From the IMG/VR virus record IMGVR_UViG_3300032311_000529, positions 1-27,050 of that record: DNA of 27,050 bases, one strand, 5' to 3'. This DNA comes from a virus. Position numbers and translations under genes: made by a program. The notes beneath the pieces are model-generated. The model was given only the letters and a program-made list of their open reading frames with translations. It was not told the origin of the DNA and searched no databases. This document shows, piece by piece, positions 172 through 20,133 of this stretch (position 1 is the first letter of the stretch; each line of letters begins with the position of its first letter).

Positions 172-203
172 GCATAATATAGCATTAGATAATTTAATTG
201 TAT

Positions 204-2267: not shown

Positions 2268-4297
2268 GTGGATTGATAAAATCTATAGATTATAAAGACT
2301 GGTTTATTAATCAGCCACGTATTCCTGACAGAGAGAGTGAGGAATATTCGGCATTCTTTAATTTCCACAAGGATTTGTGCTTAAATGGATCTATGATGGA
2401 TGGGGTTTACATAAACCCTTTTTTGTATTGGCATCTGAACTTCTGGAATACAGAAGTGGATATTATAGATGAGCGTGGACGTATTTCTCAGAAGTATGCC
2501 AATCCCTATCTACGTGATAATGAGTGGGTTATAACAAATGAGATAGATAGGGCACAGAACGAAAAGAAAGGACTGGTTATTCTAGGAATCAGGCGTTTGG
2601 CTAAATCAGTTATTGAAAGCTCATACATTGCTTGGGGAGCTACGTTTGATGAGAACAGTCAGAACATTATTGCTGGATTGAATGCTCCAGATATAAAGCT
2701 GATTACAGATAAGATTGATAAAGGACTTAACTTCCTTCCAGAAGCTTGGAGATGGCAGAGAATTGAGGACAATTGGAAGAATCAAGTGAGTCTTGGAATT
2801 AAAACTAAGGGAGGAGAACGTATACCGTTCTCTCAAATTCTCATTCGTAACTTGGATGAAGGTAATAATGAAGAAGCAATTGCAGGTACAAAACCACGTA
2901 AACTAATTATAGATGAGATTGGTAAAGGAAGTTTCCTCAGAGGATTTCAGGCAGCTGTGCCAGGTTTTACAACACCATTTGGATGGGGTTGTTCTCCTAT
3001 CCTTACAGGTACAGGTGGTGATATGAAGAGATTCATGGATGCAAAGAGCTTAATGTTCGATGTAGACAATTTTAACTTCCTTACATATAATAATGAAAAA
3101 GATGACAAGAGAGTGCACGGGTTGTTCATTTCTTATAAATATAGGATGGAAGCCAAAGAGCCAACAACCCTTGGTGCGTTCCTTGACCAACCAGTTGATA
3201 GCGATCTACACAAGATATCTATGCTGGTCAGCAACGAGGACAAGGCTAAAGAAATAACTACAACCAACCTAGAGCGTCTAAAGAAAGCTGGAGATAGGGT
3301 GGCCTATCTAAAGGAGAAGATGTACTACCCCATGGAAGTGGATGACATATTCTTGAATGAGGACACTAATATATTTGATATTGAGGCAGCTAAGCGTCAG
3401 AAAACCAGACTGTTAAACCAAGAACGTACAGGAACACCTATTATTCTATTCTCTGATGGAGAGAAGATTGGGCATAATTTCACAGACAAAATGCCAATCA
3501 GCAATTTCCCTCTAAAGAATAGCGACATGAAGGATGCTCCTGTAGTTGTGTATGAATTTCCTATATCCAATCCTCCTTATGGATTGTATGTAGCAGGTGT
3601 CGATCCCTACAGACAGGGACAATCAGCATATAGCTCCTCCTTAGGAGCAGTTTATGTTTATAAACGAATGCATGATTTAACAGGAGAGAAGTATCAAGAC
3701 ATGTTTGTAGCTTCGTATGTAGCACGTCCTGATAAGAAAGATACATGGGAAGAACAGGCTAGACTTTTGATTAAATTCTACAATGCCAGAACGCTTTGTG
3801 AGAACGATGACATCTCATTCATAGAATATATGAAAGCTAAGGGGGATGGGCATTATTTAGAGAAACAACCACAGTGGTTGATGGAAATTGTACCAAACAC
3901 CACTGTAAAGAGAGAATATGGAATTCATCGTTCGTCTCAGAAAATAATTGACTATCTTCACAATTGTTTGAAGAAATATACAGAAGAAGTGGTTATGATT
4001 GAGAAGGATAAACAAGGAAATCTAATCAGAGAGGTGACAGGAGTGAGTAAGATATTTGATCCTGTTCTCTTAGAAGAAATAATACAATACAACGATCAGG
4101 GTAACTTTGACCGTATTGTAGCAGCAGAACTAGCCATTGCTCAGGCACTGAAGATGGATCCTATAATGGGTAAGATTGGAGGTTCTGGAGATGATAGAGT
4201 GGCAGCATTATTTGCAAAAAAACACACTGAGAGTAAGTTGTTCAATACTTCCTCATCAGGACTATTTGGAACTAAACAACGTAAACTTTTTACATAA
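2264..4297 (+). CDS. terL: Terminase large subunit (packaging ATPase and nuclease)
   Basis: 677 residues, normal to slightly long for the family. N-terminal ATPase: a Walker A variant GIRRLAKS (residues 108-115, K114), Walker B KLIIDEIG (213-220, D217 and E218), then the coupling motif LTGTGG (248-252). C-terminal RNase H-like nuclease: GVDPYRQG (D447), LCENDD (E513) and NFDRIVAAELA (D616) as the probable metal-binding acids. It docks on the portal, pumps DNA into the prohead and cuts the concatemer. Walker A lacks the usual GKT/S glycine, as in many phage terminases. The gene overlaps the upstream gene by 4 nt and the portal gene by 1 nt. Confidence 0.93.
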   Translation: MSGLIKSIDYKDWFINQPRIPDRESEEYSAFFNFHKDLCLNGSMMDGVYINPFLYWHLNFWNTEVDIIDERGRISQKYANPYLRDNEWVITNEIDRAQNEKKGLVILGIRRLAKSVIESSYIAWGATFDENSQNIIAGLNAPDIKLITDKIDKGLNFLPEAWRWQRIEDNWKNQVSLGIKTKGGERIPFSQILIRNLDEGNNEEAIAGTKPRKLIIDEIGKGSFLRGFQAAVPGFTTPFGWGCSPILTGTGGDMKRFMDAKSLMFDVDNFNFLTYNNEKDDKRVHGLFISYKYRMEAKEPTTLGAFLDQPVDSDLHKISMLVSNEDKAKEITTTNLERLKKAGDRVAYLKEKMYYPMEVDDIFLNEDTNIFDIEAAKRQKTRLLNQERTGTPIILFSDGEKIGHNFTDKMPISNFPLKNSDMKDAPVVVYEFPISNPPYGLYVAGVDPYRQGQSAYSSSLGAVYVYKRMHDLTGEKYQDMFVASYVARPDKKDTWEEQARLLIKFYNARTLCENDDISFIEYMKAKGDGHYLEKQPQWLMEIVPNTTVKREYGIHRSSQKIIDYLHNCLKKYTEEVVMIEKDKQGNLIREVTGVSKIFDPVLLEEIIQYNDQGNFDRIVAAELAIAQALKMDPIMGKIGGSGDDRVAALFAKKHTESKLFNTSSSGLFGTKQRKLFT

Positions 4298-6882
4298 TGG
4301 CAATAATTAGATATACAAAGGACGCAACTATTAGGTATGCCTACCTTAATATATTTCCTGATCAGTTTAAAACTGAGAAGGAAAAGAGAGATGAAAGCTG
4401 GATTAAGAACACGATGGACTACTTTGCTAACAGAGCTTATGCTGAGTATGTAAAGAATAGAGATACATTTGTTAAGAACTACGACCTTGTGAAGGGAATT
4501 CTTCGCATGGAAGACTTTTACCAAGAGCCAGAGGTGAGGAGTTTTACAGAAACACTTACAAGAAATCTTGATCTCCCTGCTTATGTAAAACATTATTCCA
4601 TCATCACTACACCAATTAATGAACTTGTTGGTGAGATATCTAAGCGTCCTGATGCATTCAGGATTAAAGCATTTGATGACGATAGCCAGTCTGAAGAACT
4701 TGAATATAAAACAGGCATTCTCCAAGAATATGTAATAAACCAGGCAAGACAAAAGATTATGGAAAAAGTTGCCATGTCTGGGGAAGAAATTGAAGATGAG
4801 CAGCTTCAACAAATGACAATGGATGAGGTGAAAGATGAACTTGACTCTTACACTTCTGTTGCAGAAAAATGGGCTAATCACATCCTCACTTGCCAAAAAG
4901 CTGACTTCAATCTCAAAGAAAAGTCAGAAGATGCATTTAGGGATATGCTTATTTCAGCCAGGGAGTTCTATCACATCTATGAGGACAACTCAAAGGTGGG
5001 ATATAACATCGAAGTGGCTAACCCAAAGAATACGTGGTTCCTCACTACACCTGATAGGAAGTATATTTCTGATCCTACAGGTAGGGCACAAGGTGCGTAT
5101 GCTGCTGGTACAGTGCAAGTTATGGAACTCTCTGAGATAATTGAGGCTATTCCAGACTTAACTAAAGATGAGATAGACCATCTGAGAAGCTCTCTCCAAG
5201 ACTATGGATTGATTAACGTTCGTGAGTCTAACTTGGGTAATTCTAACGTTGCTCCTGGTATTGATTCTGTAACATACGATACATACGATCCTCTCGTTCT
5301 TCAGACAAGAATGATGATTGAGTCTGAGATGAAAGAAAACAATGATGGTCTAAGAGACTTCTTAGGACTAACATCTAATGTCAGCTCATTTGGATATAAA
5401 TATGTAGTTGTAAGATGCTATTGGATTTCTAAGAGAAAGATTGGTAAACTCATCTATCTAGATGAAATGGGTAATGAACAATCTGTTCTTGTAGATGAAA
5501 ACTATAAAAGCAAGACTATTCCTACAGAACAATCTTTGGAATGGGGATGGATTAATGAGTGGTATCAAGGAACTAAAATTGGTCCAGACATCTACCACAT
5601 CAAACCTTATAAGCTTTTAAATTATTGCCCCATTATAGGAATAACCTATGAGGTTAAGAATACAGAAGCTAGGTCATTGGTTGATTTGATGAAACCTTTC
5701 CAAGTGTTGTATAATGTTTGTATGAACCAGCTTTATAAACTTCTTGAGAAGGAAGTGGGTAAGGTTTATTTGACATCTATTAGACACGTACCAGTTCCTA
5801 AAGATGGAGATGCACAAGATGCTCTTGACGTTTGGGAAATGGAAGCTAGGAACAGAGGTGTGGTGTTCATTGACGATTCTCCAGAGAACCTCAAGAGTCC
5901 ATCAAGCTTCAACCAATTTAGAGATATTGACCTTACACGTACGCAGGAGATTCAATCTCGTTATCAACTTGCTATGCAGTTGAAGACTGAGTGTTGGGAA
6001 CTTGTAGGTATGTCTAGACAAAGAATGGGATCTATTTCAGCCAGTGAGTCTGCTACAGGTACAAATGCTGCACTTGCACAGAGCTATTCTCAAACAGAAC
6101 CTCTTTTTGTAGCACATGAATATGTTTTGATGCAATTGTATCAAGCAATCATTGATGCATCATTATATGTAGAAAGTAAAAAGCCTCAGTCCACGTTATC
6201 ATACATCACTTCTGAAGGAGAATCTGCATTTGTATCAGTGAATGGTACAGACCTCAGATTCCGTGACCTTAAAGTGTTTGCTACAAATCGTCCTGAGGAC
6301 AAGCAGATGTTTGAAGAGATTAGAGGACTCTCTCAAGCTGTTATACAGAACGGAGGATCTCTCCACGATGTAATAGAGCTCTATTCTACCAACTCAATAA
6401 GAGGAATGAAGAAAGTGTTCAAGACATTGAAAGAAAGACAGGAACAGCTCCAGGATCAACAAATGCAACAGCAACAGCAACAAATGGAACAACAGCAACA
6501 AATTGCTGAAGCTCAATTGCAACAAGCTCAAGTTCAAAATGAACAGAAGCTTGCAAATGAAAACTACCAAAAAGAACTTGATAGGATTAATAAGAAAGAG
6601 ATTGCCATCATCCAAGCCACAGGATTTGGTAGAGTGGAGAGTGAAGATCTTAATCAAAATACAGTTCCAGACGTTCTTGAGATGAGTAGGTTTGCAAGTG
6701 AAGAAGCCAAAGCTGCAAAAGACTATCAACTTAAAATGTCTGATATTCAGAACAAGAATAGACTTGCTGCTGAGAAGCTTCAGCTTGAAAGAGAGAAGCT
6801 ACAGATTTCTAGAGAGAATCAAGCAAACGATTTAGCAATTGCTAAAGAGAACGCCAAAGGAAGAGCTAAAAAATCTAAATAA
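4297..6882 (+). CDS. Portal protein
   Basis: 861 residues directly after the large terminase, the standard portal position. Length and the segment around residues 575-605 (RQRMGSISASESATGTNAAL, then the QSYSQTEPLF type pattern) fit the long portals of crAss-like podoviruses. The C-terminal 150 residues are a Gln-rich, charged coiled coil: Q-runs at about residues 715-745 and then repeated Lys/Glu helices to the basic end (GRAKKSK). This may form the barrel or a DNA-contacting tail. The portal is the dodecameric ring at one capsid vertex through which DNA enters and leaves. The CAA/CAG-rich DNA at about 6440-6540 is simply this Gln-rich coding part. Confidence 0.88.
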   Translation: MAIIRYTKDATIRYAYLNIFPDQFKTEKEKRDESWIKNTMDYFANRAYAEYVKNRDTFVKNYDLVKGILRMEDFYQEPEVRSFTETLTRNLDLPAYVKHYSIITTPINELVGEISKRPDAFRIKAFDDDSQSEELEYKTGILQEYVINQARQKIMEKVAMSGEEIEDEQLQQMTMDEVKDELDSYTSVAEKWANHILTCQKADFNLKEKSEDAFRDMLISAREFYHIYEDNSKVGYNIEVANPKNTWFLTTPDRKYISDPTGRAQGAYAAGTVQVMELSEIIEAIPDLTKDEIDHLRSSLQDYGLINVRESNLGNSNVAPGIDSVTYDTYDPLVLQTRMMIESEMKENNDGLRDFLGLTSNVSSFGYKYVVVRCYWISKRKIGKLIYLDEMGNEQSVLVDENYKSKTIPTEQSLEWGWINEWYQGTKIGPDIYHIKPYKLLNYCPIIGITYEVKNTEARSLVDLMKPFQVLYNVCMNQLYKLLEKEVGKVYLTSIRHVPVPKDGDAQDALDVWEMEARNRGVVFIDDSPENLKSPSSFNQFRDIDLTRTQEIQSRYQLAMQLKTECWELVGMSRQRMGSISASESATGTNAALAQSYSQTEPLFVAHEYVLMQLYQAIIDASLYVESKKPQSTLSYITSEGESAFVSVNGTDLRFRDLKVFATNRPEDKQMFEEIRGLSQAVIQNGGSLHDVIELYSTNSIRGMKKVFKTLKERQEQLQDQQMQQQQQQMEQQQQIAEAQLQQAQVQNEQKLANENYQKELDRINKKEIAIIQATGFGRVESEDLNQNTVPDVLEMSRFASEEAKAAKDYQLKMSDIQNKNRLAAEKLQLEREKLQISRENQANDLAIAKENAKGRAKKSK

Positions 6883-7088
6883 TGCTAGAATTTCGTAACC
6901 CCATCCCTGTTGTTGTAGAAAATGATAAGGATGGGTATGCAATTTATGTAACAAACGGTGGAAGTTTTGAGAATGATGTGTGGTGCGTAGTGCTATGTGA
7001 TGGAGGAGAAGTGAGACATTATCTATCAAATCAAATAAGAATGTACGCTAACGCTACACTTAATATTAAAAAATTACATAATGTTTGA
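6882..7088 (+). CDS. Small conserved-looking beta-rich unknown protein
   Basis: 68 residues beginning MLEFRNPIPVVVENDKDGYA. It predicts alternating strands with a central GGSFENDVWCVVLCDGGEVR segment, consistent with a small beta barrel of the SH3 type. It overlaps the portal stop by 1 nt and the SPFH gene start by 8 nt, so it is translated with the head genes. Position between portal and scaffold suggests a head-assembly accessory role, but I see no catalytic motif. Confidence 0.6.
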   Translation: MLEFRNPIPVVVENDKDGYAIYVTNGGSFENDVWCVVLCDGGEVRHYLSNQIRMYANATLNIKKLHNV

Positions 7089-7611
7089 TAGACTTATAGA
7101 CGTAATTACAGAATGGTGGGCATATTTTATGCCTGCTATTATTATTCCTAATTATGAAGAAGCAGTTCTTCTTAGGAATGGTAAGTTTATAAAAGTGTTA
7201 GGACCAGGGTTCCACGTGAAACTTCCAATATTTGACGAAGTGATAAGTCATCATGTTGTTGTTACAACATTGAGTCTTCCTGCTCAATCATTATATACAA
7301 AAGACAAACAGAACATTGTTGTCAAAGGAGTGGTTAAATACAAGATAGCAGACGTGAAGATTTTCCTACTTGAGGTGTTTGATGCACAAGATGCATTGGC
7401 TGACATGACACAAAGCATAATTAAAAACATCATCATCACCACATCCATAGAAGAATGTTTAGATTTAGAATTAGATAACATTCTTACAAAGAAAGTTAGG
7501 GTGGAAGCAAGGAAGTGGGGAGTTGAAATTCAACAAGTTACGCTAACAGACATTGCTCCAATACGCAGTTATAGGATAATAAACGACTCAGTTTTAAACA
7601 ATTTAGATTAG
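7081..7611 (+). CDS. SPFH/Band 7 (stomatin/prohibitin-like) protein
   Basis: 176 residues. Residues 9-24 (ITEWWAYFMPAIIIPN) are hydrophobic and aromatic and could anchor the protein in a membrane. They are followed by the SPFH core: EEAVLLRNGKFIKVLGPGFH (residues 26-45) and VKLPIFDEV, then LYTKDKQNIVVKGVVKYKIA (71-90), a helical segment around EVFDAQDALADMTQSIIKNI, and EARKWGVEIQQVTLTDIAP (142-160). The last is the usual R-x-x-WG-[IV]-x-[IV]-x-x-[IV] ending. Cellular members (HflK/HflC, stomatins, prohibitins) form membrane rings that steer proteases such as FtsH. This one lacks their long C-terminal coiled coil. It occupies the slot between portal and scaffold where many phages keep a prohead protease. 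Function in this phage is unknown. Confidence 0.85.
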   Translation: MFDRLIDVITEWWAYFMPAIIIPNYEEAVLLRNGKFIKVLGPGFHVKLPIFDEVISHHVVVTTLSLPAQSLYTKDKQNIVVKGVVKYKIADVKIFLLEVFDAQDALADMTQSIIKNIIITTSIEECLDLELDNILTKKVRVEARKWGVEIQQVTLTDIAPIRSYRIINDSVLNNLD

Positions 7612-7731
7612 AGTAAATTACACTAATGCTATATTATCTGCAAAATTAGGCAGTTACATGTTCCTTCTCTTTGCTAATAAATTCACATTACATATTTTTA
7701 CATTACAAACCAATTTTTAAAAGAACTACAT
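7612..7731 (+). promoter_or_regulatory. 120-nt leader before the scaffold gene, with weak promoter candidate
   Basis: This AT-rich gap has no ORF. TCTCTTTG at 7666-7673 differs from the Bacteroidota -7 box TAnnTTTG at one base, but no TTG lies at the right distance upstream, so it is a weak candidate. The last bases (AAACCAA at 7707-7713 and TTAAAAGAACTACAT at 7717-7731) closely match the leader in front of 10716. The A-rich, Shine-Dalgarno-free form is expected for efficient initiation in Bacteroidota. Confidence 0.35.
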
Positions 7732-8961
7732 ATGGCCGATAATCAAGAACTTTCTCAATTTGGGAACTTTAGTATTGAAGATACTATGAATATGGGAATG
7801 GGTAGCTCAGAACTTCTGAACGATCTTATGTCTCCTGAAACAGCATCTAGTTCACCTGATGATGTTACAGTTATTAAAGACGAACCCCCTGCTCCTAAGA
7901 AAGCTGCTAAAGCTCCAGAAACTCCTAAAGAAGAAGAAGCTCCTGCAAAAGAAGATTCATCCAAATCAATCCAAGACTTTCTTCTTGGTGATGAGGAAGA
8001 AGAAGATGGTGATGATGCACCTGCAAAACCTGTAGCTAAAGAAACTAAGGAAGTTGAAAATGAGGAAGAAGAACCAGAAACATCACAGTTTACAGCTCTA
8101 TCAAATGACCTGTTTAAATTGGGAGTGTTTAACAAGGATGAAGATGAAGAAGATGTTGCTATTACATCTCCTGAAGAATTCCTTGAAAGGTTCAACCTAG
8201 AAAAGAAAAAAGGTGCAATAGACATCGTAGAAAATTTCATAGGTCAATTTGGAGAAGACTACAAACAAGCATTCGATGCAATATTTGTTAAAGGAGTTGA
8301 TCCAAAAGAATATTTCGGCACATATAATAACATTCAAAGTTTCGCTGAACTTGATTTGACTCAAGAAGGAAATCAAGTGGCTGTATTGAAACAAGCTTTA
8401 GCTGATCAAGGATTTGATCCTGAAGATGTTGAAACAGAAGTTGAGAGACTTAAGAATTACGGAGATCTTGAATCAGTTGCAGCTAAACACCACAAAGTGT
8501 TGGTTAAAAAAGAAGCAGCTAAGTTGGCTCAAATGGAGCAACAAAGAGAACAAGAACTCCAAAAACAACAAGCCTTTAAACAGCAATACGTAAATAACGT
8601 ACAGTCTGTTCTACAAGATAAACTTAAAGCTAAGGAATTTGATGGCATCCCCCTCAATCCAAAATTGGCTAACGAACTACAAGATTTCCTTTTGGTTGAC
8701 AGATATCAAACCTCTTCAGGCGAAAAGCTTACAGAGTTTGATAGGCAAATTTTGGAATTGAAGAGACCAGAAAACCACGCACTTAAAGTGAAGATGGGGC
8801 TGCTTATGAAAATTCTAGAAACAGATCCAACACTATCAACCATTCAAAAGAGGGGAATCAGTAAAAAGTCAGATGACCTATTTAGTGAAGTGGCAAGACA
8901 AACGTCTAAATCGTCCATTAAATCTAACAAGTCATCTACTCCCACCTCTTGGTTTCAATAA
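7732..8961 (+). CDS. Putative capsid scaffolding protein
   Basis: 409 residues immediately before the major capsid gene. Residues 1-125 are low-complexity: Ser/Thr-rich, then Pro/Ala/Lys/Glu-rich (PPAPKKAAKAPETPKEEEAP) and strongly acidic (DEEEEDGDDAP). Residues 130-390 are predicted almost wholly helical, with coiled-coil character around KKEAAKLAQMEQQREQELQK. The end is basic and Ser-rich (SSIKSNKSSTPTSWFQ). Disordered acidic start, long helices, a short basic C-terminal capsid-binding tail and this gene position are what scaffolding proteins show. No protease motif was found in it, so the scaffold may leave the shell intact or be cut by a host enzyme. Identification is by architecture and place, not by a sequence signature. 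Confidence 0.65.
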   Translation: MADNQELSQFGNFSIEDTMNMGMGSSELLNDLMSPETASSSPDDVTVIKDEPPAPKKAAKAPETPKEEEAPAKEDSSKSIQDFLLGDEEEEDGDDAPAKPVAKETKEVENEEEEPETSQFTALSNDLFKLGVFNKDEDEEDVAITSPEEFLERFNLEKKKGAIDIVENFIGQFGEDYKQAFDAIFVKGVDPKEYFGTYNNIQSFAELDLTQEGNQVAVLKQALADQGFDPEDVETEVERLKNYGDLESVAAKHHKVLVKKEAAKLAQMEQQREQELQKQQAFKQQYVNNVQSVLQDKLKAKEFDGIPLNPKLANELQDFLLVDRYQTSSGEKLTEFDRQILELKRPENHALKVKMGLLMKILETDPTLSTIQKRGISKKSDDLFSEVARQTSKSSIKSNKSSTPTSWFQ

Positions 8962-8986: not shown

Positions 8987-10540
8987 ATGGCAATTCAAAC
9001 AATCCCAGGTTTAACTGGATTTACGTATGCTCGTGTTGCTTCGATGGATAAGCGTGCTGTAGGTAAGCTTACAGATGCCAACCACCTTGAAAGCTTCCAC
9101 AGCACAGAGCCTGCTGATTATGATAAAAAGATCATCAGCCTCTACACTCAAAGTTCATTGTACAGCAATGACTTCTTGGACATGATTAACAAGTCCACTC
9201 CTTATTACATTGACAACAATAGTGATGCATGGAAGTGGCAGGTACAAGTTCCTTACAAGTTTCCAAAGATCATCGATGTTCCTTTGGCTACTGAAGCACT
9301 TGTTAAGCCTGGTATTGATGGTCAAGAGTTCCAATTGGTAATTGACACAAATGAGTTCTCTAAGAACGCAATTGTTTCTGTAGGTACTCGTCAGTATGGT
9401 CCTAGGTTCTACGTTGTTAAAGATCCAGTTCCTTGGAACATGGGCTACCTTTACACCTTCACCTTGGTAAGTGACAATCCTACAGTTGATTTCGTAAGCT
9501 CTCAGTTCCTCGCTATTGGTGTTGAGCTTGAGCTGGTTGACGCTGCAATTGGTGAGTTTGATCAAGACTTGCTTGGTCTTCCTCGTCTTGGTGAGCAAAT
9601 CACTATGTTTGAATCTCTTGGTTCTGCATATGGTTATGAGCACAAGATCACTGAGTGGGCTGATGACAAGATGATGGTTGATGCTTCTGGCAAACCTTTG
9701 GACATCCTGGTTTACGCTCCACAGCGTAGGAACCAACTTCCTTTGACTAGGAATGATGTTAAATGGGAACCATTCATTGAGTTCTGGATGCGTAAGTCTA
9801 TGCTTGAGTTGAAAGTTAAGCGTATGATTTGGAGCAAGCCTGGTACTGTTAAAACAAATGGTTCTAAGCAAGAATTGAAGCGTACCTCTGCTGGTGTTTA
9901 CCACAGGATGCGTAACAATGGTAACTTGGTACAATACAATCGTGGTGAATTCACTGCAAACCTTATCCGTTCAGTTTTTGGTGATCTGTTCTATCGCAGG
10001 GTGGATGTTAAAGACCGTAGGGTTAAAATGTATACAAACGAAGCTGGTTTCGATGTATTCCAGCAAGCTCTTAAGACAGATGCTTTGAATTCTGGCTTGA
10101 CTTTCATGGCTGATTCTGGTAACAGGTATCTCCAAGGTGAAGGACAGCACATCACTTACAACTTTGCATTCGATGCAATGGTTACTCGTGAGACTGGTCG
10201 TGTTGAACTGATTCACTTGAAGGAACTTGATCTTCCACAATCTAACCTTGAATTTGGTCAGAACAAGAAATCTACTCCTGTATTCATGGTGTTCGATGTA
10301 TCTCCAATGAGCGATGGTTCAATGGTAAACAACATCCGTGAAGTAAGGATGAAAGGTGCACCTTCAATGACTTGGGGTTATATCGATGGTACTCGTCATC
10401 ACTTGGGCTTTGCTAAGTCTCAGGGTATGTCAAGTGCTAACAAGTTCCCTGGTTATGAAATCTGGATGAAAGACCGTTGTGATGTATTCATTGAAGACTT
10501 GTCTCGTACAGTTTTGATTGAAGAGATTCCACAATTCTAA
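8987..10540 (+). CDS. Major capsid protein (HK97 fold expected)
   Basis: 517 residues starting MAIQTIPGLTGFTYARVASM. Position after the scaffold candidate, length, absence of low-complexity parts and a codon usage unlike the flanking genes (CGT dominates for Arg while AGA looks rare; many GGT, GTT and AAC codons) point to the most highly expressed structural gene. The N-terminal part (FHSTEPADYDKKIISLYTQS) resembles the N-arm of crAss-like capsid proteins; the C-terminal third (VMVFDVSPMSDGSM and MKDRCDVFIEDLSRTVLIEE) would belong to the P- and A-domains. The leader AAAAGAACACAAA just before the ATG is A-rich with no Shine-Dalgarno sequence. It is followed by a highly folded non-coding region. 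Confidence 0.85.
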   Translation: MAIQTIPGLTGFTYARVASMDKRAVGKLTDANHLESFHSTEPADYDKKIISLYTQSSLYSNDFLDMINKSTPYYIDNNSDAWKWQVQVPYKFPKIIDVPLATEALVKPGIDGQEFQLVIDTNEFSKNAIVSVGTRQYGPRFYVVKDPVPWNMGYLYTFTLVSDNPTVDFVSSQFLAIGVELELVDAAIGEFDQDLLGLPRLGEQITMFESLGSAYGYEHKITEWADDKMMVDASGKPLDILVYAPQRRNQLPLTRNDVKWEPFIEFWMRKSMLELKVKRMIWSKPGTVKTNGSKQELKRTSAGVYHRMRNNGNLVQYNRGEFTANLIRSVFGDLFYRRVDVKDRRVKMYTNEAGFDVFQQALKTDALNSGLTFMADSGNRYLQGEGQHITYNFAFDAMVTRETGRVELIHLKELDLPQSNLEFGQNKKSTPVFMVFDVSPMSDGSMVNNIREVRMKGAPSMTWGYIDGTRHHLGFAKSQGMSSANKFPGYEIWMKDRCDVFIEDLSRTVLIEEIPQF

Positions 10541-16268: not shown

Positions 16269-17522
16269 ATGGCTGATAATCAATATCTTCTCAACCAGTT
16301 ACAACAATTATTGAGTTGGAAAAAGAGCAAGAAGTTTTATGCAGAAAAGCTTGGAATAGGAGAAGAAGAAGTAGAGAGTCTGCTTAGAGAAATTAAAGAG
16401 TCAAAAGAAGCTATTAGAACTGAAGCAGAAACATCTGATTATATTGGTCTTCTTGAAGATGTTGTGGTTAAATACGAAGAAGATATTGCTAGGGGTGTAG
16501 GAGAAGTGATTTTCAATTCTGCTGAAGAAATTAAATCTCTTGATGAGCTTATTGTAAAGTCAAAGATTGATACAGAGAAGTGGGAAATAACTAAATACGT
16601 TCAGAACTATTGGGGAAATAGTAAAACTCCTCATTGGCAAGTTAAAGCTTGGATGGCTAAGAAATCCACTGAGCAACTATTCCAAGACTCATTCATTGAG
16701 TTTCTCAAAGAATACCAACCCACATCTAAAGAAATACCAACTCCTAGACAAAACACTGAAAAGCCTTTAGCATCTTTAATTATCAATAAACAAGACTCTC
16801 ATCTAAATAAGTTTGACATAGATGGGAACAATAATATAAACAAAAGGTTCTCTAATATTCTACAGAAGGTGGAAGTTATTGTAGACCAAGCCAGTTTATC
16901 AAATCATGTAGACACAGTGTATTATATCATTGGGTCTGATGAATTTAATAGCGAGTTTACAGGAAATACAACTAAAGGAACCCCACAACAGAACATTCTC
17001 ACCTATCATGATTCTTTTGAGAAGATTTGTAATCATGAGGTGGAAATGATAAAAATGCTTCTTGAGAAAGCATTTAATGTAGATGTTATTTATGTAGCTG
17101 GAAATCATGATGAGTTTGTAGGATGGCATATGATCAATTGGTTAAATGCATATTTTAAGAGTAACTTAAGAGTTACATTTGATTGTTCTCCTAAATACAG
17201 AAAGTATATAAGTTATGGAGAAACAGCAATGATGTTTAATCATGGAGATGCTATGAAGCCTGCAAAGCTTGCTAGCATATTTCCAATAGAATATAGAGAA
17301 GAATGGTCAAACAACAAGAACTTCTATGTATTCACTGGAGACAAGCATCATGAAATAAGCATTGACTTTGGTGGAATTAAGTTTTATCAAATACCTGCCT
17401 TTTCAAATGCTAAGAGTTCTTGGGATGAGAAGAATGGTTACACAGGCTCAAGAGCTGAGGTTACAGGATTCCTTATAGACTTTGAACAAGGAATGACTAA
17501 CATATTCAAACAATATTTATAA
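16269..17522 (+). CDS. Calcineurin-like metallophosphoesterase with N-terminal helical domain
   Basis: 417 residues. Residues 12-45 (KKFYAEKLGIGEEEVESLLR included) look like a helix-turn-helix; residues 105-150 include WQVKAWMAKK. The C-terminal half carries the metallophosphoesterase motifs in order: DSH (D176, H178), GSDEFN (D224), GNHD (279-281), NHGD (H325) and GDKHH (H360, H361). All metal ligands appear present, so it should be active. Family members cleave phosphodiesters of nucleic acids, nucleotides or proteins. It is the first gene after its own promoter and overlaps the next by 1 nt. DNA processing at packaging, entry or repair is likelier than cell signalling because of the HTH-like part, but the substrate is unknown. 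Confidence 0.8.
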   Translation: MADNQYLLNQLQQLLSWKKSKKFYAEKLGIGEEEVESLLREIKESKEAIRTEAETSDYIGLLEDVVVKYEEDIARGVGEVIFNSAEEIKSLDELIVKSKIDTEKWEITKYVQNYWGNSKTPHWQVKAWMAKKSTEQLFQDSFIEFLKEYQPTSKEIPTPRQNTEKPLASLIINKQDSHLNKFDIDGNNNINKRFSNILQKVEVIVDQASLSNHVDTVYYIIGSDEFNSEFTGNTTKGTPQQNILTYHDSFEKICNHEVEMIKMLLEKAFNVDVIYVAGNHDEFVGWHMINWLNAYFKSNLRVTFDCSPKYRKYISYGETAMMFNHGDAMKPAKLASIFPIEYREEWSNNKNFYVFTGDKHHEISIDFGGIKFYQIPAFSNAKSSWDEKNGYTGSRAEVTGFLIDFEQGMTNIFKQYL

Positions 17523-18247
17523 TGTCAACTTTAAGAAAATTAGTTTCAGATGTACGTGGTATGCACAAGTTGCTTTCCACTGACTCTCTCATTACTGACA
17601 GAGTGATAGCATCTGAAGTTAAAAATAATTCACTTCTTCTTATCAAGAGAGAAACTAATCTCAGAAAGCTCTGGGCTACGGACACTCTTTTTACAACATT
17701 GCCATGTCTTGAAATGATACAAGTTCCTATTTCAGAATGTTGTGATTATGTAGATCCTTGTTCAGTTTCAAGAAGTAGGTATAAATTGCCTCGTATATCT
17801 GAAGGAAACTATCAATATATTATTCAGGGTGTTTATTCTATAAACGCAATGAGTGGTCAAGGAAAGAAACTCAAAGAGATTACAATCAATAGATATATAA
17901 ATCTCCTAAAGCTTCCCATCATCAAGAATGAAGAATACTATTGGATTCAGAATGGTTATCTATATGTAAATAATCAATATCTGAGAGCAATCAGAATATC
18001 TGCATTGTTTGAAACAGATGTTCCAAATGAGCTTCTCTATCCAGAATGTTGTTGCGGTGAGGACATTATTATAGAAGACTTCTGCAAGAACCCCCTTGAC
18101 AAACCATATGGTCTTCCTGGATATTTACAAACACAAGTGTTAGAGCTCACTACCAAAAAACTATTGTCTACTTATTTCTCAATTAAAACAGATCTTACAG
18201 ATGATGGTTTGGACGGACAAGCTCCAAACGTTAAACCAACTAGTTAA
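17522..18247 (+). CDS. Putative tail ring/adaptor protein
   Basis: 241 residues starting MSTLRKLVSDVRGMHKLLST. The N-terminal 60 residues are helical (LITDRVIASEVKNNSLLLIK), then a beta-rich middle (residues 95-165, YWIQNGYLYVNNQYLRAIRI) with two Cys groups: ECCDYVDPC (about residues 72-80) and ECCCGEDIIIEDFC (about 174-187). The C-terminal helix ELTTKKLLSTYFSI is followed by a Pro/Asp tail. Helical base, beta insertion and C-terminal helix recall podovirus adaptor and ring proteins. It overlaps the phosphoesterase stop and the GIY-YIG start by 1 nt each. The reading frame is intact, so the following endonuclease gene did not damage it. Confidence 0.5.
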   Translation: MSTLRKLVSDVRGMHKLLSTDSLITDRVIASEVKNNSLLLIKRETNLRKLWATDTLFTTLPCLEMIQVPISECCDYVDPCSVSRSRYKLPRISEGNYQYIIQGVYSINAMSGQGKKLKEITINRYINLLKLPIIKNEEYYWIQNGYLYVNNQYLRAIRISALFETDVPNELLYPECCCGEDIIIEDFCKNPLDKPYGLPGYLQTQVLELTTKKLLSTYFSIKTDLTDDGLDGQAPNVKPTS

Positions 18248-19014
18248 TGCATTACTTGTACAGACATATAAGACTTGATAAAAATGAACCATTCTATATT
18301 GGTATAGGAACAAAGCAACATAATAAAAATAACTCTTTTAAATCAGAATATAGAAGAGCTTTCTCTAAACAGAGAAAAGATTCAAAAATTTGGAACCTTA
18401 TATCAAATAAAACTGATTATTGTGTAGAAATATTAATGGATTCTGATAATTATGACTTTATTAAAAGTAAAGAAAAAGAATTTATAAAACTTTATGGAAG
18501 AATAAATAATAATACAGGATGTTTAGCAAATATGACAGATGGAGGAGATGGATCTGTAGGATATGTTCATAGCATAGAATCAATTGAAAAATTAAAAATT
18601 GCTAGAAAGACAAGAGGTTTTGTACATAGTTGTGAAATTTATCAATATGATTTACAAGGTAATTTTATTAAAAAGTGGGAATCTATTAAAAGTGCATCAG
18701 AATTTTGTAAAGTTCATATCACAACATTACATAAAGTGGTAAAGAATAACACAAATAATAATTACTGTAAAGGTTATTATTGGAAAAGTAATTTTGAAAA
18801 AACCATTACTCCAAAAGAGTATAAAATTGTAAATCGAAACGCTGTAATACAAATGATTTGTCCAGATACAAATCTTATATTAAAAGTTTTTAACTCAAAA
18901 AAAGAAGCTAGTGATTTTTTAGGAAAAAAGAAAATTAGCGGTTTTTTAAAAAAATGCATAGATAATAATAAAAAGGGACATGGATATTATTGGAAGGAGG
19001 TTAACCATGAGTAG
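18247..19014 (+). CDS. Free-standing GIY-YIG homing endonuclease
   Basis: 255 residues. N-terminal nuclease: YLYRHIRL (3-10) and FYIGIGTK (16-23) form a GIY-YIG variant; the catalytic arginine may be R35 or R36, and a glutamate at 76-78 (KEKEFIKLYGR) would bind metal; NNTGCLANMTDGGDGS closes the domain. HSIESIEKLKIARK (108-121) is a NUMOD3-like helix. Two NUMOD1-like repeats follow (about 131-180 and 200-250), each ending GYYWK. Such enzymes cut alleles lacking the gene and spread by repair. The gene is A-rich with many A-runs, unlike its neighbours, as expected for an intruder. It starts on the stop of 17522-18247 and overlaps the next gene by 8 nt. Confidence 0.85.
   Translation: MHYLYRHIRLDKNEPFYIGIGTKQHNKNNSFKSEYRRAFSKQRKDSKIWNLISNKTDYCVEILMDSDNYDFIKSKEKEFIKLYGRINNNTGCLANMTDGGDGSVGYVHSIESIEKLKIARKTRGFVHSCEIYQYDLQGNFIKKWESIKSASEFCKVHITTLHKVVKNNTNNNYCKGYYWKSNFEKTITPKEYKIVNRNAVIQMICPDTNLILKVFNSKKEASDFLGKKKISGFLKKCIDNNKKGHGYYWKEVNHE
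18994..19009 (+). promoter_or_regulatory. Shine-Dalgarno-like site before gene 19007
   Basis: AAGGAGG ends at 19000, six bases before the ATG at 19007. Every other start inspected here uses an A-rich leader without such a motif. The motif is also coding sequence for the last residues (KEV) of the GIY-YIG gene, so it may be chance or may have been brought by the endonuclease gene to keep the next gene translated. Confidence 0.35.
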
Positions 19015-19483
19015 AGTTCGGATTGATTGGAGGTCAGCAAGCAAAGAAAACTACAATAACTTCTGCAAGAAGCATCCAGAGATCAAACTAAGCTTTGATG
19101 ATTGGAAAGATATAATATACACATTTAACGAAGCATTTAGAAATTACATTCTTGAGACAGGAAATAGAGAAAAGCTTCCATATGGATTTGGAGAGTTCTC
19201 CATTGTAAAGAAGAAGAGAAGAAAGAAAAAAGGACTTAATGATGAGTTTATTAATCTTCCTGTAGATTGGCAAAGGACTAAACAGAAAGGAAAAATCATC
19301 TACAATTTCAACTACCACACAGAAGGATACTTTTTTGGATGGATGTGGTTTAAAGAAACAGTGAGAATTAAAGGTACAGACTTTTGGTATTTTAAACCAT
19401 CAAGAGTTACATCAAGAATGCTTGCACACTACATCAAGGCTGATGAAAAATATCAGCACATCTATAGAGAATGGCAAAAATAA
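19007..19483 (+). CDS. Basic virion/DNA-binding protein with HU/IHF-like signature
   Basis: 158 residues from the ATG at 19007 (MSRVRIDWRSASKENYNNFC). An earlier ATG at 18980 lies within the endonuclease gene and adds nine unrelated residues. Residues 30-67 (FDDWKDIIYTFNEAFRNYIL and then LPYGFGEFSIV) place a helix before GFGEF, resembling the HU/IHF helix and beta turn; a run of basic residues (KKKRRKKK, 68-75) follows. Then FNYHTEGYFFGWMWFKETVR (101-120) and a basic aromatic end. This could be a divergent DNA-bending or DNA-packing protein, or a small structural protein that only resembles one. It is boxed in by two homing endonuclease genes, which tend to target conserved genes, so it is probably essential. 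Confidence 0.55.
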   Translation: MSRVRIDWRSASKENYNNFCKKHPEIKLSFDDWKDIIYTFNEAFRNYILETGNREKLPYGFGEFSIVKKKRRKKKGLNDEFINLPVDWQRTKQKGKIIYNFNYHTEGYFFGWMWFKETVRIKGTDFWYFKPSRVTSRMLAHYIKADEKYQHIYREWQK

Positions 19484-19485
19484 AT

Positions 19486-20133
19486 ATGAAAGAAAAAATT
19501 AAATATACACCAGGAGAAAAATTTGGTAAACTTACCTTTATAGAAGAAGATTTTCACGAAAAAGAAATAACAGGGTTTCAAAAATATAGAAAAGCTGTTG
19601 TAGAATGTTTTTGTGGTAAAAAATTTATAACAAGGATCAGTGGATTAAGAAATGGTAAAGTTAAATCTTGTGGATGTATAAGAAAAGATAAATTATCAAA
19701 AAGAATAACAAGACACAACATGAGCACAAGCTCAGAATACGCCTCTTGGGAAGCTATGAAATCAAGGTGTTTAAATTCAAAAAATAGATTCTATTATAAT
19801 TATGGAGGAAGAGGTATAAAAGTTTGTGAAGAATGGTTAGATTTTAAAAATTTTATAAAAGATATGGGAAATAAACCCAATAAAAATTATTCAATTGAAA
19901 GAATAAATGTAAATGGTAATTATTGTCCTGAAAACTGTAAATGGTCTGATAGATATGAACAAGATAGAAATAGAAGAAATAGTGTTAAATTTTTTATAAA
20001 CGGAGAATATAAAATTTTAATGGATATAGCTAGAGAAAATAATTTACACCAACAGACAATAAAAAGCAGGTTATTAAAAGGGATGACAATTGAAGAAGCT
20101 ATTGATAAACAGTATAAATACACTAAAAAATGA
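19486..20133 (+). CDS. HNH homing endonuclease
   Basis: 215 residues from the ATG at 19486 (MKEKIKYTPGEKFGKLTFIE), 2 nt after the previous stop; an ATG at 19471 would add five residues. Residues 10-75 match the AP2/zinc-ribbon-like DNA-binding start of phage HNH enzymes: GEKFGKLTFIEE, then ECFCGKKFITRISGLRNGKV and KSCGC. The nuclease core runs from YASWEAMKSRCLNSKNRFYY through YGGRGIKVCEEWLDF to SIERINVNGNYCPENCKW. The C-terminal INGEYKILMDIARENNLHQQ resembles a NUMOD helix-turn-helix. The gene is very AT-rich. Its stop overlaps the start of the next structural gene by 4 nt, so it rides in the operon without its own signals. Confidence 0.85.
   Translation: MKEKIKYTPGEKFGKLTFIEEDFHEKEITGFQKYRKAVVECFCGKKFITRISGLRNGKVKSCGCIRKDKLSKRITRHNMSTSSEYASWEAMKSRCLNSKNRFYYNYGGRGIKVCEEWLDFKNFIKDMGNKPNKNYSIERINVNGNYCPENCKWSDRYEQDRNRRNSVKFFINGEYKILMDIARENNLHQQTIKSRLLKGMTIEEAIDKQYKYTKK

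Follow-up and report, generated by a model that had tools for sequence, protein, structure and literature searches.

The window, the whole stretch of 27,050 nucleotides that we analyzed, comes from a viral record that is a 27-kb fragment. It carries a crassvirus-like late region with a P22-like portal, a crassvirus capsid protein and ring proteins 1 and 2. Crassvirales capsid and ring proteins scored above the cut-off (PF23898, PF25702 and PF24228), and among isolates, Leptolyngbya phage Lbo-JY46 has the best portal E-value. The interval between the portal and scaffold genes, which we refer to as the slot, is occupied in the window by a small gene for an SPFH (Band 7) protein. The features of the slot and its borders are the following:

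4297..6882, plus strand: portal protein (P22-like; PF16510, phrog_6547), left border of the cargo slot
6882..7088, plus strand: 68-aa ORF lying between portal and SPFH and sharing 8 bases with the SPFH start; no Pfam match
7081..7611, plus strand: mini-SPFH (Band 7) protein of 176 aa, without a coiled-coil tail; PF01145, stomatin-like fold, 67 homologues
7084..7128, plus strand: predicted amphipathic N-terminal helix (residues 2–16), possible membrane contact; model pLDDT about 60
7141..7569, plus strand: SPFH domain proper (Pfam residues 21–163), with an invariant TTxSLxxQSLYTxDxQN core in 67 homologues
7608..7637, plus strand: promoter-like element TTAGAGTAAA-N6-TAATGCTATATTAT where the SPFH gene ends; right slot border
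7732..8961, plus strand: scaffold-like acidic protein, right neighbour of SPFH; weak phrog_16294 match
8987..10540, plus strand: crassvirus major capsid protein (PF23898, E=4e-28), used as bait for the relatives in the slot survey

An earlier note on this DNA had placed an SPFH protein between portal and scaffold genes. The flanking genes agree, with the PF16510 portal on the left and the scaffold-like ORF followed by the PF23898 capsid gene on the right, but the 68-aa ORF intervenes on the portal side. At the portal/SPFH junction, this ORF is found only in a few close relatives (L001, L009, L010 and L011). The window also lacks a protease signature, as the note had stated: no peptidase family was matched among the Pfam-scanned ORFs and no HExxH motif was present in ORFs of at least 60 aa. 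A prohead protease in the window was rejected, as none was found among the scanned ORFs. Elsewhere in the window, a protein containing NUMOD1 and resembling homing endonucleases (18247–19011) and an ORF without a Pfam match (19471–20130) are encoded between two ring-protein genes, and a predicted DNA repair exonuclease (16269–17522; phrog_704, E=2e-45) lies inside the structural block.

A stomatin-like SPFH domain without an assembly tail

The ORF at 7081–7611 starts with ATG, stops with TAG and has the conserved Band 7 domain at residues 21–163 (PF01145, E=7.3e-26, 91.7 bits versus a cut-off of 23.6). A phmmer search of the PDB matched the protein to stomatin (E about 1e-13), QmcA (2e-10) and HflK (7e-5), and residues 3–164 align with human stomatin. 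We modeled the protein with AlphaFold2 using an alignment of 67 homologues. The model has a mean pLDDT of 72.5, with most of the core at 82–92 and lower confidence (about 45–67) in the N-terminal third and C-terminus. Its core can be superposed on the SPFH domains of stomatins (VIA-align Z 15.2–15.9), best on 3bk6 (Z 15.9, rmsd 2.1 Å over 105 residues), and Foldseek also matched the model to these domains (E 7e-12). The SPFH fold named in the earlier note is thus confirmed by family, sequence and structure searches alike, and its likeness is to the stomatin and slipin/QmcA group (SPFH1). The hydrophobic N-terminus of that description is amphipathic instead (hydrophobic moment 0.52). It forms no clear transmembrane helix and differs from the stomatin segment in not being strongly hydrophobic, with a best 19-residue Kyte-Doolittle mean of 1.31 versus 2.06.

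Cellular SPFH proteins use their coiled-coil and C-terminal parts to build cages. Unlike stomatin and slipin/QmcA, the window protein has neither part and ends at residue 176, directly past the domain, so that the assembly region of the SPFH ring-formers is absent. All 67 distinct full-length homologues fit the same 176 columns with a conserved C-terminus (length checked in 52/52), and the missing coiled coil is therefore a stable property of the mini-SPFH. The gene is also under purifying selection, with dN/dS values of about 0.05–0.09 between the window and seven relatives (NG86; synonymous sites are near saturation in the more distant pairs). Furthermore, SPFH1 distances track portal distances (Mantel r 0.52, p 0.001), a correlation consistent with a gene that has long been resident and was at times lost or replaced. 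A pattern scan of genome contigs for close cellular homologues found none that encodes a relative. A literature search, with incomplete journal coverage, returned nothing on point about SPFH proteins in crAss-like phages.

Cellular SPFH proteins work with proteases such as FtsH, which partners HflKC, and the NfeD-type proteases encoded in SPFH operons (PMC2636767). Of the close-similarity members of the prokaryotic SPFH1 subgroup, 229/353 lie in one operon with NfeD (PMC2636767). The window SPFH differs in having no NfeD-like gene beside it, its neighbours being the portal gene or 68-aa ORF and the scaffold gene. The 68-aa ORF was considered for the role of an NfeD-like partner and rejected: it matches no family, occurs at this place in only a few close relatives and has distant homologues elsewhere.

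Other phages also encode SPFH domains. Like the window, the crassvirus crAss001 has an SPFH protein (gp91, an SPFH-domain/band7-family protein), but it is 405 aa with a long tail, scores under the Pfam cut-off for Band 7 and is encoded near replication genes, outside the structural block (L164 1063–2280). Lbo-JY46 has a 260-aa SPFH protein with a lipoprotein-like N-terminus, also outside the structural block (L163 1429–2211). The prohibitin/band 7 proteins of Rhizobium and Agrobacterium phages and Escherichia phage Skarpretter share the domain but are about 284 aa (two inspected) and encoded near dUTPase and other DNA-metabolism genes. The closest viral structural match, A0A6J7WFI0 (BFVD; a 173-aa 'HflK' from an uncultured Caudovirales phage), has the mini size but is 28% identical to the window SPFH. 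We also identified a mini-SPFH of about 187 aa, annotated as prohibitin-like, in an unrelated GC-rich podovirus (MW202733; L328 3980–4543), encoded directly after the terminase large subunit gene. A match in MT835563 was left out, as the ORF calls gave no clear mini-SPFH ORF.

Exchange of genes between portal and scaffold

In the best 80 loci found via SPFH itself, the gene lay between portal and scaffold wherever both were visible, and its ATG overlapped or shortly followed the portal stop in loci without an inserted ORF. Loci picked through SPFH cannot show its absence, so we drew a second sample through the capsid protein. This sample contained the best 80 of more than 598 capsid-protein relatives, chosen regardless of SPFH, with capsid proteins 95–97% identical to that of the window, plus the near-identical L084. 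Both samples are best-80 lists and not random draws, their contigs may be incomplete, most homologues are metagenomic and the gene boundaries are our own ORF calls.

The portal–scaffold interval was complete in 64 of the capsid-picked relatives. The slot held an SPFH gene in 48/64 relatives and none in 16/64. SPFH1 accounted for 44 of the 64 slots and a second type, SPFH2 (175 aa, 26% identical to SPFH1), for 4. The slot was empty in eight relatives (8/64; interval of 141–144 bp, about 142), contained a 77–82-aa ORF (orfA) together with an 84-aa HEHFH (HExxH) protein in seven (7/64) and an unrelated 73-aa ORF in one (1/64). One SPFH carrier also had an endonuclease VII-like gene upstream of the slot SPFH. 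Mapped onto a tree built from 89 distinct portal proteins, slot content changed at least 10 times, and SPFH was absent from the window's nearest portal relative (L086). Five contigs of 91–114 kb without a slot SPFH had no Band 7 domain anywhere; relocation of the gene elsewhere in slot-empty genomes was thus rejected for these long contigs. The soluble HExxH gene was absent elsewhere in the 11 long SPFH-positive contigs tested.

With close relatives that lack it or carry replacements, the slot SPFH is dispensable, swappable cargo. The slot census and losses, the selection on the gene and the SPFH1–portal correlation together rule out two readings, that of an essential head gene and that of a recent passenger. 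The earlier note had equated absence from close relatives with a recent passenger; the gene is indeed absent from some of them, but it is long-resident and under purifying selection. The note's proposal that the position is usually held by a prohead protease failed, as none of the relatives examined has such a protease there. In crAss001, the interval is occupied by fibre, tailspike and lysis genes, without an annotated prohead protease. The portal and scaffold genes of Lbo-JY46 are adjacent with no gene between them, and where the capsid protein is near-identical to that of the window, the slot is empty or filled with SPFH or other cargo. The 84-aa HExxH protein found in 7/64 slots is itself optional cargo.

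The right border of the slot is less variable. The TTAGAGTAAA-N6-TAATGCTATATTAT element trails the slot in every slot state, with small variations. Nearly all loci extending as far as the portal/scaffold junction have its second half, TAATGCTATATTAT, there, and in Lbo-JY46 this half lies exactly between portal and scaffold (L083 22071–22083). The element is a possible phage promoter. A scan with SPFH-type promoter and terminator consensus sequences around the SPFH gene gave sites no more often than in shuffles. A second copy of TAATGCTATATTAT is on the minus strand of the window (174–187), near the left end of the block as in many loci. The slot is probably the tail of a terminase–portal transcription unit, the site where an insertion would do least harm.

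SPFH2 and the HExxH proteins

SPFH2 also has the Band 7 domain (Pfam E about 1e-14), and its nearest PDB relative is HflK. Two diverged mini-SPFHs, one nearest to stomatin and the other to HflK, fill one slot at 175–176 aa. We also identified SPFH2 outside the crAss-like clade, in 8 contigs with no crAss-like head genes in the available sequence. In the four small-phage contigs inspected in full, SPFH2 follows genes for tail-fibre-like proteins and for endolysin or other late products, and immediately upstream of it is a gene for a 134–139-aa HExxH protein. This protein has an N-terminal hydrophobic helix, an HE(L/F)xH motif and a downstream EE pair. Scans for the HExxH protein and for SPFH2, run separately, recovered the same 8 non-crAss contigs (8/8 paired).

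The membrane HExxH protein matches phrog_1365, a family of unannotated function, and has no significant Pfam match. Its model (pLDDT 88) has a helix at residues 2–26, the HExxH motif on a helix at 101–118 and E128/E129 on the next helix, a predicted geometry compatible with a gluzincin-like site. The PDB gave no convincing match to this fold, which is not proof of a new one. Judged by its motif, the protein is probably a membrane metalloprotease. HExxH-protein relatives are also found in many other phages. The pairing resembles the HflK/HflC–FtsH system, in which a zinc metalloprotease anchored in the membrane cooperates with SPFH proteins; SPFH2 has HflK as its nearest PDB relative and adjoins a membrane HExxH gene. 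However, the phage HExxH protein (about 134–158 aa) is too small for an AAA+ domain, and the phage SPFH has no cage-forming tail.

The orfA (77–82 aa) and HEHFH (84–86 aa) genes are a two-gene cargo unit common to crAss-like and unrelated small phages (L122 291–753, L143 4090–4552, L149 8085–8547 and L212 5769–6252). The HEHFH protein is about 72–83% identical between the two groups. In the crAss-like slot the pair alternates with SPFH, and in related-looking small phages it lies at a comparable position.

In the crAss-like clade, the phrog_1365 HExxH gene is far from the slot, near dUTPase, between a zinc-finger-like gene and a gene for an 86–100-aa protein. We counted its co-occurrence with SPFH in contigs that hold the dUTPase locus and were not chosen via HExxH. 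The HExxH gene was present in 15/19 SPFH-positive versus 0/5 SPFH-negative contigs (Fisher one-sided p about 0.003, uncorrected), and two further contigs with a portal, chosen via HExxH, were both SPFH-positive. When corrected for kinship, the association reduces to only 2–3 independent changes on the portal tree and is not significant; the co-occurrence was accordingly withdrawn as proof. The HExxH gene was also absent from all 5 tested contigs of the window's subclade (5/5). Three of these carry SPFH (L009, L040 and L042), and SPFH1 can therefore persist without the HExxH gene. The SPFH–protease link suggested in the earlier note gains indirect support from the HExxH gene next to SPFH2 in other phages and from the co-occurrence, but not from the window's own subclade.

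Possible roles of the mini-SPFH

Our tentative preference, at a probability of roughly 0.4, is for a mini-SPFH adaptor that is made late, binds the membrane and directs proteolysis there, its partner being a phage or a host protein according to lineage. The gene is a resident, swappable accessory gene (a 'moron'), probably at the 3′ end of the terminase–portal transcription unit, just before the promoter-like element. Its product is a minimal stomatin-like SPFH that keeps the membrane-proximal domain and lacks the cage-building coiled-coil and C-terminal parts. Presumably made late, together with the portal, the protein would most likely be attached to the cytoplasmic side of the inner membrane by its amphipathic N-terminal helix, where it could act as a scaffold or adaptor in membrane-associated proteolysis. 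The phage membrane HExxH protein may be its partner where present, and host SPFH/protease complexes may take that role elsewhere. We counted in favor of this adaptor the fold, the fixed length, the dN/dS values, the slot swapping, the existence of two mini-SPFHs, the SPFH2–HExxH pairing, the co-occurrence and the HExxH model. Counted against it were the association that is not significant after kinship correction, the window's subclade without HExxH, the HExxH relatives in many other phages, the HExxH model without a convincing PDB fold and the N-terminus that is not a clear transmembrane segment.

The main rival, which we hold to be doubtful, is that the truncated SPFH joins host rings of the stomatin/QmcA/HflKC type and poisons or caps them. 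Host FtsH or membrane microdomains would then be freed or blocked late in infection, and a phage protease partner would be unnecessary. An SPFH domain of cellular type that lacks the assembly tail is consistent with such mimicry, as is the retention of SPFH in lineages without a phage HExxH gene. Two SPFH types resembling different cellular subfamilies would also suit different host targets. Furthermore, phage lambda provides a precedent for interaction with the HflKC–FtsH system (PMC1838920; PMC3053222), with its CII protein degraded by FtsH in complex with HflKC (PMC1838920). However, other phages have the HExxH gene adjoining SPFH2, which points to a partner encoded by the phage.

It is unlikely that the phages have a two-component module entirely of their own, in which a minimal SPFH scaffold and a membrane mini HExxH metallopeptidase would represent a reduction of the HflKC–FtsH principle. 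Such a module would move as mobile cargo between unrelated phages and be exchanged at fixed slots with the soluble orfA–HExxH pair, which would have a related purpose. Superinfection exclusion or membrane protection is improbable as well. For this role, a late membrane organiser would stiffen the inner membrane or block entry or abortive-infection effectors. Fitness or exclusion genes are typically carried as optional, swappable cargo, and the unrelated podovirus also has its mini-SPFH, directly after a terminase gene.

A head-assembly factor, either the membrane platform of the earlier note or a chaperone in portal/procapsid formation, is now strongly weakened and very improbable. The portal–scaffold position, the frequent start–stop overlap with the portal gene and the SPFH in the slot of 48/64 relatives are what such a factor would have in its favor. 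On the other hand, 16/64 relatives with capsid proteins 95–97% identical have no slot SPFH, 8 of them with an empty slot, and the five long SPFH-less contigs have no Band 7 domain at all. A functionless passenger recently acquired from a host would match the absence of SPFH from L086 but is hardly credible for a gene with dN/dS far below 1, invariant length, broad presence and distances that correlate with those of the portal.

The clade's otherwise collinear morphogenesis block thus has a slot between portal and scaffold that repeatedly exchanges dispensable genes. This corrects an expectation, as a gene at the portal–scaffold position need not serve head assembly. The mini-SPFH is a naturally tailless SPFH protein, lacking the part that builds cages. 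Together with the small HExxH protein encoded beside its cousin, it would be a compact test system for SPFH-steered membrane proteolysis.
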